Of a stretch of 60,955 nucleotides of DNA, positions 1 through 3,157 are shown piece after piece (within the stretch, counting starts at the first letter, position 1; every line of letters begins with the position of its first letter). The notes beneath the pieces were generated by a model. It had not been told where the DNA came from. It was given only the letters and a program-made list of their open reading frames with translations, and did no database searches. The translations under genes were made by a program, and so were the position numbers. Source of the DNA: Candidatus Krumholzibacteriota bacterium (GTDB taxonomy: Bacteria; Krumholzibacteriota; Krumholzibacteriia; Krumholzibacteriales; Krumholzibacteriaceae); the NCBI GenBank assembly GCA_030609325.1, contig JAUWCL010000019.1:1-60955 (forward strand). The letters are read 5' to 3'.

Positions 1-354
1 TGGGTTACGACTCGGAGGGCGCAAGCATACAGCATGCTCGACGTGCTTACAGACGCAGCGATTCCGGATGTAGAGAGCTTCTTTTCCCTCTACAACCCGA
101 CACCAAACCCGTGCCATACCTCGACCTGCATCGAGTGGGCAATGCCCAGCGATGCCAATGTTCGTCTCCAGATCTTCGACGTGGCGGGCCGCCTCGTGGC
201 AACACTCGTCGACACGAGGAAGACAGCCGGGAGGCATGGAGTTGTCTGGGACGGCATAGACCAGCACGGAAACAAGGTTACATCTGGAGTCTACTTCGCC
301 CGTATCGCGTCTGGGAAATGGTCCCCCATGCGCAAGATTATTCTCTTGCGGTAG
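1..354 (+). CDS. C-terminal part of an exported protein with a FlgD-like sorting domain (5' end outside window)
   Basis: The frame is open from base 1 to a TAG at 352-354, so only the last 117 codons of a larger protein are seen. The last ~85 residues form a FlgD-like (FlgD Ig-like / T9SS-type) C-terminal domain: NPTPNPC, then IFDVAGRLVATLVD, then VVWDGIDQHG, then SGVYFARI, closing with KIILLR. In FCB bacteria such domains end large secreted enzymes and adhesins and act as a sorting or anchoring module. The catalytic or binding part lies upstream of the window, so function cannot be named. The same kind of tail ends the GH13 gene at 54998-57487. The following ~195 bases hold no convincing gene. 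Confidence 0.8.
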   Translation, partial: WVTTRRAQAYSMLDVLTDAAIPDVESFFSLYNPTPNPCHTSTCIEWAMPSDANVRLQIFDVAGRLVATLVDTRKTAGRHGVVWDGIDQHGNKVTSGVYFARIASGKWSPMRKIILLR

Positions 355-549: not shown

Positions 550-1650
550 ATGAGGATATCTTTAGGTCAAAGAGATTTCATGGATAGAATAAAACTTCCA
601 AAAAGAGTGATGCTTCCGTCACTTGCTGTTGTTCTTGTCGTCCTGCTTCTGTCGCCTATCAAGGTCCCCTATGCAGTCAAAGTGCCAGGGAAGATAATAC
701 CTGCCCAGGAATGGGTGCTGGAAAGAGGCGTGGACGGTCGCCTGATTTCCTGTTTGCGAGATTACATGAAAGGGGCCACAAAATCGTATTCTGTGACACA
801 ATTTGAACGGGGAGATGCAATGAGTTTCACGCTTTCCCCGTCAATTGCTCAAGATGCCTTTATATCGACTGATGATACAATTGGGTGGGTCTATTCCAAT
901 GACCTAGAACATCGCTTGACCGAGCTTAGAGGAGAGCTGTCGATTACCGAGGCATCCTTGAAATCGCTAAGAACCGGCGAGAAACAATCTATCCTCCATG
1001 AAACAAAACAGCTTTTGATCTACGCAAGGAAACAGGTTGAAGAACATCAGAAAATAGTGGAGCGTCAGTCTGTTTTATACGCATATAAAATTATTACGAA
1101 AGAAGAATTCGAACAAGTTGAAGGCGAGGCCGCACTGTTAAGCATCAATGTCGCTGTTGCCGAAGCGCGGGTGGAATCTGCCAGAAGCGGCGAAAAGCCG
1201 GAAGAACTGGAAATTGTTCAGTCACGCATCGATGCACTCGAGGGAGAGATGGCGGCCCTCCAGAAACGGCTTGAAATGTTCACAGTTTCATCCCCGATTT
1301 CAGGATATATCACAGCGGGGTTTTCAGGAGATACCCTTCTGATCGTTTCAGATACAACGAATTACGTAATCTTTTTGCCGATAATGTGGCACGAAAAGCA
1401 GTATGTCTCCTTGCACCAGGAATTGGAATTCAGCATATTGAAAATATCCGGGGACGGCTCTGGTGAACTGATCAATATCGAAAACCACGTCCATTACTTG
1501 AGGGGTGAGCCGGTAGTGTTGGCTACTGCGCTGGTAAAATTCGATTCGCTGCCTGTATTCTCTGGAATGATAGCGCAGTGTGTGATTAATTGCCAACCGG
1601 TCACCCTGTTCGAATACTTAAAAAGGAAGATCAAGACTTTAGTGGCATAG
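550..1650 (+). CDS. HlyD-like periplasmic adaptor (membrane fusion) protein
   Basis: The 366-residue protein has one N-terminal membrane segment (about residues 21-37), then the first half of a barrel-sandwich (lipoyl-like) domain (KVPGKIIP, GVDGRLI), a long charged coiled-coil hairpin (about 115-240) and the second half-motif (SSPISGYITAG), followed by a beta-barrel-like region. This order is that of HlyD/EmrA-type adaptors, which link an inner-membrane partner to the outer membrane. No ABC, MFS or RND transporter is next to it. Instead it is followed at once by VTC-domain and DUF4956 genes, so it probably works with them. The start could also be the ATG at 580. The three genes are clearly more A+T-rich than their neighbours, which suggests acquisition by transfer. 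Confidence 0.75.
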   Translation: MRISLGQRDFMDRIKLPKRVMLPSLAVVLVVLLLSPIKVPYAVKVPGKIIPAQEWVLERGVDGRLISCLRDYMKGATKSYSVTQFERGDAMSFTLSPSIAQDAFISTDDTIGWVYSNDLEHRLTELRGELSITEASLKSLRTGEKQSILHETKQLLIYARKQVEEHQKIVERQSVLYAYKIITKEEFEQVEGEAALLSINVAVAEARVESARSGEKPEELEIVQSRIDALEGEMAALQKRLEMFTVSSPISGYITAGFSGDTLLIVSDTTNYVIFLPIMWHEKQYVSLHQELEFSILKISGDGSGELINIENHVHYLRGEPVVLATALVKFDSLPVFSGMIAQCVINCQPVTLFEYLKRKIKTLVA

Positions 1651-1652
1651 AA

Positions 1653-2471
1653 ATGTACTCTTTACGATTGGAATATAAATATCTGGTCCCCAAAGATTTG
1701 GTAGGGGATATCCGCTCGGCGATGCGGCCGTTCGTTGAAATCGACACTTTTGCAGACCGCAGAGACGTCAAGGAATACACTGTCCGGAGTATATATTTCG
1801 ATACACTCAAGTACGATTGTTACTTCGATAAATTAGAGGGGATAAAGACACGAAAAAAATTCAGAATTCGTGGTTATAACCACCCGGATAGCGACAGTAT
1901 AGTATTTCTGGAAATTAAACGGAAGTATCTTAACTATATCGAGAAAAGCAGGGCACCTTTATACAAGAACAATATCGATCAACTTTTCCTCACCAAGGAT
2001 ATGGATAAATATATCATATCGTTGAACGGAAACGGGGAAGAGCAGGATAATGCTCGCCGTTTCCTATATAACTTCTACAAAAAATCGTTACGACCGACTA
2101 TTTTAATTGTATATGAAAGGGAAGCTTTCTACGGGAAATTCAATAAACATTTACGCTTGACCTTCGATAAATATCTGCGCAGTACTATCTATCCCTCATT
2201 GGATCAGCTCTTCAAAGAAGACAAGACCAAGCATGCTATGCCCAAGTATTTCATCTTAGAGGTAAAATTCTACAACGGCCTGCCTGCCTGGATAAGAAAC
2301 ATTGTCAGAACGTATGACCTTCATCGAATGGCACTCTCGAAATATACAATATCCCTGGATTCTCACAGAGATAAAAAGACGAGCTTAAGAATGCTGTCGA
2401 CCCCATTACTTCAAAATATTCATTGGACCAATCATTTAAATAGGGCTGACGATATAAAGCAATCCGTTTAA
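1653..2471 (+). CDS. VTC-domain protein (polyphosphate polymerase domain)
   Basis: The product is a 272-residue protein of the VTC/CYTH-like triphosphate-tunnel superfamily, whose eukaryotic member Vtc4 makes polyphosphate from ATP. Tunnel signatures appear in order: EYKYLVP near the N-terminus, SIYFDT, KTRKKFRIRGY, FLEIKRK, RPTILIVYEREAF, LRLTFDKYLRS, FILEVKFYNGLP and a final SKYTISLD. The basic and acidic residues expected to line the tunnel are therefore present. The ATG at 1653 is chosen because it lies 2 bases after the adaptor stop and gives the family's usual N-terminus; a longer frame from 1590 would overlap the adaptor. Pairing of VTC and DUF4956 genes recurs in bacteria. Polymerase activity itself is inferred from the family. 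Confidence 0.88.
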   Translation: MYSLRLEYKYLVPKDLVGDIRSAMRPFVEIDTFADRRDVKEYTVRSIYFDTLKYDCYFDKLEGIKTRKKFRIRGYNHPDSDSIVFLEIKRKYLNYIEKSRAPLYKNNIDQLFLTKDMDKYIISLNGNGEEQDNARRFLYNFYKKSLRPTILIVYEREAFYGKFNKHLRLTFDKYLRSTIYPSLDQLFKEDKTKHAMPKYFILEVKFYNGLPAWIRNIVRTYDLHRMALSKYTISLDSHRDKKTSLRMLSTPLLQNIHWTNHLNRADDIKQSV

Positions 2472-2482
2472 ATGGAATCAAT

Positions 2483-3157
2483 ATGCTAGAGGATATTCAG
2501 AATGTACTCGGGTTTTCAACCTCAACGGGAGAGGTTGTTGGAAATCTGTGTGTCGCTCTCTCATGCGGCTACTTTATTTCACTGATTTACCGGTTCACAT
2601 ATAAAGGTCCGGGGTATTCTGTATCTTTTGCACACTCGATCATTCTATTATCGATGATCACATCTGTCGTCATTATCGTCATCGGGAACAACCTGGCTCG
2701 GGCGTTCGGTCTGGTTGGTGCCATGTCGATAGTGCGTTTTCGAACCGCCGTTAAAGAGACGCGGGATATCGTTTTTATATTCTTCGGGTTGACTATCGGG
2801 ATGGCGGCGGGAGTGGGATTACATAAACTTGCCGTTATCTGCACTCTTTTCATCGGAATGGTTCTATTCCTTTTCTCAAAATATTCCCTTACAGAATCCC
2901 GGCAGAAGGAATACCTCCTTCAGTTCTCTTCCACGCAAAACGGATCAAAGTCACCCCCCTATATTCCCGTAATGGATAAATATTGCAGTCACCACAAGGT
3001 GATCAACGTAAAATCTGTCGGGGAAGATGATATGTTGGAGCTCTCCTATTACGTGAAGCTTAAAGATCTAGAGAATAGTAGCGAGTTCACGAGCGAGTTG
3101 CAAAAAGTCAAAGGTGTTCAATACATCAATTTGTTCTTCGACGAAGAACAATTTTAA
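2483..3157 (+). CDS. DUF4956 membrane protein
   Basis: This 224-residue protein has about four hydrophobic segments in residues 20-135 and a soluble C-terminal ~80 residues. The family hallmark, GAMSIVRFRTAVKETRD followed by IFFGLTIGMAAGVG, lies at about residues 78-113. The C-terminal part (ELSYYVKLKDL, VKGVQYINLFF) resembles a small ACT-like fold. It starts 11 bases after the VTC gene and closes the cassette. DUF4956 proteins often sit beside VTC proteins; the biochemical role is unknown, but a membrane partner for polyphosphate synthesis or transport is a fair inference. Its A+T-rich codon use matches the two genes before it. Confidence 0.85.
   Translation: MLEDIQNVLGFSTSTGEVVGNLCVALSCGYFISLIYRFTYKGPGYSVSFAHSIILLSMITSVVIIVIGNNLARAFGLVGAMSIVRFRTAVKETRDIVFIFFGLTIGMAAGVGLHKLAVICTLFIGMVLFLFSKYSLTESRQKEYLLQFSSTQNGSKSPPYIPVMDKYCSHHKVINVKSVGEDDMLELSYYVKLKDLENSSEFTSELQKVKGVQYINLFFDEEQF

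Follow-up and report, generated by a model that had tools for sequence, protein, structure and literature searches.

The occurrence of a periplasmic adaptor directly before a VTC-type polyphosphate polymerase domain and a DUF4956 membrane protein raises a question: does such an operon make polyphosphate and pass it across the envelope? The original prediction, made from a single contig, described three adjacent genes, 2 and 11 bases apart, with a base composition unlike that of their flanks, and read them as a machine that makes a polyphosphate-like polymer and moves it across the envelope. The stretch analyzed here (hereafter, the window) is that whole contig of 60,955 bases, from a draft genome of 2.63 Mb in 56 contigs (assembly 95% complete). 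The coordinates of the open reading frames confirm the arrangement: three co-directional genes lie within positions 550–3157, with intergenic gaps of 2 and 11 nt. The VTC start is an ATG that lies inside a longer TTG frame beginning at 1590. No cognate ABC, MFS or RND transporter was found within the cassette, and the genes downstream are on the opposite strand and unrelated (one glycosyltransferase-like, followed by FecCD/ABC uptake genes). A possible terminator, a nine-pair hairpin with a T-rich tail, lies at 3131–3151 at the end of the DUF4956 gene; it comes from a consensus scan only, which found 7 such elements in the region vs. 3.1 expected.

Features of the locus, in window coordinates.
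Feature	Position	Strand	Description
C-terminal 117 aa of a probable secreted CotH-type protein, FlgD_ig/T9SS-type tail	1..354	+	remainder lost at contig start
Periplasmic adaptor (membrane-fusion protein)	550..1650	+	366 aa; N-terminal membrane anchor, barrel domains, long alpha-hairpin
Family-specific RGDxxxF-type stretch of the adaptor (R87-G-D...)	808..831	+	R invariant in 50/51 members
Hairpin-tip TolC-docking motif RxxxLxxxxxx(S/T): R172, L176, T183	1063..1098	+	counterpart of the MacA RLS motif by alignment; located in the turn between the two modelled helices
VTC-type polyphosphate polymerase domain, soluble	1653..2471	+	272 aa; PF09359
R71-I-R73 of VTC, equivalent to Vtc4 R264/R266	1863..1871	+	alignment to 3g3q
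DUF4956 inner-membrane protein	2483..3157	+	224 aa; PF16316
Conserved basic residues R73, R85, R87, K91 in the membrane part of DUF4956	2699..2755	+	candidate polyanion path

The departure in base composition also held. The cassette has a G+C fraction of 0.431 (43.1%), vs. a mean of 0.570 (SD 0.020, minimum 0.519) in 2608-nt windows over the rest of the contig, and the GC3 of its genes is 0.48–0.52, vs. 0.64–0.75 in six flanking genes. We rejected A+T-richness as an intrinsic trait of these genes: the G+C content of 58 named triplets differs from that of their flanks by -1.5 points on average. Because triplets elsewhere are thus close to their flanks, the contrast in the window, and a similar one in Candidatus Latescibacterota bacterium CS4-C107 (locus L035, the same as L108), fits acquisition from an A+T-richer donor. 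The genus and family contributed 19 further genomes to the sample, and VTC was found in none of them. In the tree of the concatenated proteins, L115 is the partner of the window (support 0.90), and L035 falls in a clade with a support of 0.48; the window and L035 triplets may stem from one shared acquisition.

The first gene had been called a HlyD-like adaptor, and several lines of evidence bear this out. The protein has no match in Pfam, and its family falls below the Pfam HlyD thresholds; in NCBIfam, several HlyD-type models match it (best 7.4e-8). A profile of the family matches MacA, EmrA and AcrA in the PDB; this family profile was needed, since a phmmer search of the PDB with the single sequence returned coiled-coil noise only. 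In the AlphaFold2 (AF2) model (mean pLDDT 91.5), an N-terminal membrane helix, barrel parts and two hairpin helices (residues 117–178 and 184–242) are evident. A Foldseek search of the PDB with this model gave MacA first (1.8e-15), followed by EmrA, AcrA and MexA; the anchor, barrel domains and alpha-hairpin thus come in the order of membrane-fusion proteins. The RLS motif at the tip of an adaptor hairpin is known to contact TolC (PMC3391258). In the family studied here, its arginine is conserved in 51 of 51 members, its leucine in 46, and a serine or threonine at the last position in 38.

The VTC protein matches PF09359 with an E-value of 1.2e-39 (136.7 bits; curated cut-off, 23), and its family profile matches the yeast Vtc4 structure 3g3q at 3.5e-26. 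Alignment to that structure equates K9, R71, R73, K89, K98, R156 and R168 of the window protein with K200, R264, R266, K281, K294, R361 and R373 of Vtc4, and E203, K205, S229 and K230 with E426, K428, S457 and K458. All of the active-site residues that were mapped are identical to those of Vtc4 and invariant in 18 of 18 homologues, in which 14 active-site positions are identical. Mutating three such residues together (R264A/R266A/E426N) inactivates yeast Vtc4 (PMC9911596). The predicted polymerization of polyphosphate from ATP is therefore strongly supported by the residues. PF09359 was the sole domain found in the 272-residue protein by a Pfam scan, SPX and the VTC transmembrane domain being absent, and no transmembrane segment was found in it. 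It would work like the eukaryotic-type VTC complex but is not a member of it. Neither PPK1 nor PPK2 was found in the window genome (95% complete as assembled), so VTC is its only recognizable polyphosphate polymerase among the families searched. The literature searched yielded no assay of any bacterial VTC.

The third protein matches PF16316 at 8.4e-16 (58.6 bits; curated cut-off, 30.6). It also matches the MgtC/SapB model NF007431 (4.7e-6), with a score of 26 bits that is far below the family cut-off of 214. MgtC/SapB proteins can be regulators rather than channels. The AF2 model (pLDDT 86) places membrane helices within residues 15–137, followed by a C-terminal ACT-like domain; Foldseek returned only weak ACT-domain matches (3ibw, 2.5e-3), and no channel fold was among them. 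The basic residues of the membrane part are strongly conserved (R73 in 47 of 51 sequences, R85 and R87 in 50 each, K91 in 48). The yeast VTC complex has a channel lined with basic residues (PMC9911596), so a polyanion path along these residues of DUF4956 is plausible by analogy. The topology described for Streptococcus SIR_1592 matches that of the window protein (PMC12345266).

Does the triplet hold together in other genomes? VTC is present in 29 of 193 sampled relatives; among 33 VTC loci mapped from these relatives (window included), 11 have strictly the order adaptor-VTC-DUF4956, and in others the adaptor is of another type or missing. A DUF4956 profile scan of 84,980 species gave 316 relatives, and we mapped the best 80 of these, a set that is biased toward relatives of the window DUF4956 and that was not selected for VTC or adaptor. 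Conservation of gene order, proposed with the original prediction as a check, was apparent in this set: of the 75 named loci on contigs that extend far enough to be evaluated, 68 keep the order, six lack the adaptor and one lacks VTC. The loci span Zixibacteria, Ignavibacteria, Bacteroidetes, Calditrichaeota, KSB1, Neomarinimicrobiota, Latescibacterota and others, with median gaps of 3 and 9 nt. The three gene trees are congruent (Mantel r 0.86–0.88; permuted data reached at most about 0.25). Across 80 genomes of the class, nine matches to the adaptor profile exceeded 400 bits, all of them triplet members; the profile was built from those nine loci, and the informative part is the large gap to the next match. 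That match, at 155 bits (G014), is a solitary adaptor gene next to a B12/radical-SAM gene; all lower-scoring matches, under 85 bits, are generic adaptors. For this adaptor type, the concern that it might rarely accompany VTC and DUF4956 elsewhere did not materialize.

These data also bear on whether the adaptor works with an unlinked ABC, MFS or RND exporter, its place in the operon being due to chance or co-regulation. One locus lends this idea some substance: in L039, a different adaptor subfamily and a MacB-type ABC transporter lie beside VTC-DUF4956. The conserved order, the agreement of the gene trees and the confinement of the full-length adaptor family in the class to triplets all speak against it. 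So do the neighbors: among 104 on the same strand beside triplets, no ABC, MFS or RND transporter recurs (ABC ATPases, 3; sodium symporters, 5). For this adaptor type, then, no dedicated transporter recurs just outside the cassette in relatives, which had been envisaged as a counter-indication, and we consider an unlinked exporter very improbable.

The adaptor is common in diderms, not universal. Diderm VTC-DUF4956-CotH loci without it are found at L044, L047–L050, L057, L061 and L062; given these and the six named loci of the close set, the adaptor is not indispensable. Monoderm records, from Planococcus and Pseudobutyrivibrio, have VTC-DUF4956-CotH without an adaptor, and in two sampled VTC genomes that lack Omp85 the locus lacks it too.

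Several other gene contexts were seen. L102, L106, L112 and L120 (WOR-3/Stahlbacteria and relatives) have VTC-DUF4956 without an adaptor and with other genes directly before VTC; in L106, these encode arylsulfotransferase-like and beta-propeller proteins, both T9SS-tailed, plus CotH. An SdiA-regulated/phytase-like beta-propeller gene, possibly for a phosphate-related enzyme, follows DUF4956 in several triplets (4 of the 104 neighbors; L051 2356–3117, L116 8659–9426). A lamin-tail-domain (LTD) protein adjoins VTC in L058 (6231–7907), and LTD is also fused to CotH in L107 and L158. A PLD-like protein of 178 aa is encoded directly 5' of the adaptor in L032 (6409–6945); L033 and L034 have an ORF of 178–179 aa at that place, a correspondence of position and length alone.

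The three genes of the original cassette stood, but the set was incomplete: a fourth partner, represented by the ORF at the contig start, had been missed. This ORF matches FlgD_ig (1.9e-10) and Por_Secre_tail (3e-6) and, across 119 aligned positions, shares 60% identity with the terminal part of the CotH-FlgD_ig protein encoded directly upstream of the L035 triplet; the contig holds the tail alone, and a CotH domain would lie beyond its start. To judge from this match, the ORF belongs to the locus as the C-terminus of a CotH/FlgD_ig protein. The rest of the window assembly yielded no CotH, which is what a gene interrupted by the contig end would give. The tail has a host-like G+C content (57.3%), unlike the triplet, and the CotH gene may therefore not have travelled with it; L035 is similar in this respect (CotH, 54.9%; triplet, 40%). 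Of the 43 triplets having enough flank, 21 have a CotH gene within 3 kb, and 28 of 34 complete CotH proteins near triplets bear a T9SS-type tail. The CotH partners are predicted to lie outside the cell.

The company of CotH prompts comparison with Gram-positive bacteria, in which a set of CotH, polyphosphate polymerase and DUF4956 genes is known at Pel loci (PMC7112168, PMC12345266); a similar gene set occurs in Clostridium perfringens (PMC2879425). By extension of what has been proposed there, the module could modify exopolysaccharides or surface proteins, with the VTC product a short phosphate carrier or signal and DUF4956 an MgtC-like regulator. Contiguity with Pel operons and the altered Pel-dependent aggregation of Streptococcus when CotH or DUF4956 is deleted (PMC7112168, PMC12345266) are in keeping with such a role, as are the MgtC-like score and the ACT-like domain of DUF4956. 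It would leave the co-evolving TolC-type adaptor unexplained, however, and neither glycosyltransferases nor Pel genes are recurrent neighbors of triplets; we regard it as quite unlikely.

In several independent lineages, an outer-membrane component is part of the operon. TolC-like outer-membrane (OEP) genes lie in the operons of L053 (adaptor-OEP-VTC-DUF4956), L055 (DUF4956-adaptor-OEP-VTC, then two CotH genes), L058 (DUF4956-adaptor-OEP-VTC) and L148 (adaptor-VTC-DUF4956-OEP), the OEP and adaptor identities being confirmed by Pfam or the family profile. A Hymenobacter volaticus plasmid (L190, NZ_CP095062.1, 4829–8084) carries adaptor-DUF4956-TolC followed by a T9SS-tailed protein, and no VTC was found on this record. 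DUF4956 can therefore fill the place of the inner-membrane gene next to an adaptor and an OEP, but VTC need not be linked to them: on this plasmid, conduit and polymerase are naturally decoupled. We sought a dedicated OEP for the triplet in the window genome and found none; each of its four full OEPs adjoins another pump.

Polyphosphate might instead go to the periplasm only, the adaptor serving, as scaffold or regulator, to position the synthase close to the machinery for surface polymers or T9SS, with no outer-membrane channel in use. That most triplets have no linked OEP, that the OEPs of the window genome belong to other pumps and that adaptor-free diderm loci exist would all fit. Set against this are the conserved TolC-docking motif, the linkage of OEP genes in independent lineages and the predicted extracellular location of the CotH partners, and we judge confinement to the periplasm unlikely.

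We favor export: the cassette is probably the diderm form of a VTC/DUF4956 polyphosphate synthase-translocase, in which the adaptor hands the polymer to a TolC-like channel. The OEP genes in operons of other lineages and the RLS tip motif add support to the original interpretation, within which we infer the identity of the polymer, the direction of its movement and the assembly of the complex. The cytosolic VTC domain would polymerize phosphate from ATP, and the chain would leave by the tunnel of the active site to enter DUF4956, where the conserved arginines and lysine would line the inner-membrane path. Synthesis would push the chain through the membrane, as in yeast VTC, for which coupling of synthesis to translocation is the model (PMC9911596), so that no ATP-driven transporter would be needed. 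The adaptor would then bridge DUF4956 to a TolC-like channel and hand over the polyphosphate. At the surface, the polymer would most likely serve the neighboring secreted CotH-type kinases and/or surface polymers, to judge from linkage. Counting against export are the adaptor-free diderm loci, the Hymenobacter record without VTC, the MacB of L039, the MgtC/SapB likeness of DUF4956 and the OEPs beside other pumps.

ATP is scarce outside the cell, and we know of no obvious phosphate donor for extracellular kinases. A more specific form of the export model would have VTC, DUF4956, the RLS adaptor and TolC act as a transporter-free, synthesis-driven trans-envelope exporter whose polyphosphate is the phosphoryl donor for secreted CotH kinases outside the cell; this we hold to be possible, if doubtful.

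How does the cassette compare with known systems? Like the eukaryotic VTC complex (Vtc1/3/4), it has a Vtc4-type polymerase domain with the same catalytic residues, and this soluble polymerase is paired with a membrane part that carries basic residues. It differs in having no SPX, in having DUF4956 in place of the VTC transmembrane domain, and in adding a periplasmic adaptor, such that the route would span two membranes. With the Gram-positive Pel-locus set it shares VTC, DUF4956 and a secreted CotH, whereas the monoderm loci examined have no adaptor; moreover, the Streptococcus paper places the three genes only at Pel loci, while here the set is widespread. The adaptor resembles MacA, AcrA, EmrA and HlyD of tripartite efflux and type I secretion in fold, membrane anchor, hairpin and tip motif, yet its partner is VTC/DUF4956, and it forms its own family with an RGDxxxF-type insert. 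DUF4956 recalls MgtC/SapB in its membrane helices and C-terminal ACT-like domain, despite the low model score. Our literature search, which covered only a minority of subscription journals, found no description of the adaptor form, or of a VTC domain together with HlyD, and no route for deliberate bacterial polyphosphate synthesis and secretion.

Many bacterial lineages that have received little study carry the three genes as a set, often next to secreted kinase-like proteins, which are possible users of polyphosphate; CotH lies near about half of the triplets. With a VTC polymerase, a membrane protein, an adaptor of the TolC type and a secreted CotH in one widespread operon, the questions of polyphosphate secretion and of an extracellular phosphate donor become directly testable. 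If the export model is true, a polymer synthase would take the place of the pump as inner-membrane partner in a tripartite system, and DUF4956, along with an adaptor family unrecognized by Pfam, would acquire a function.
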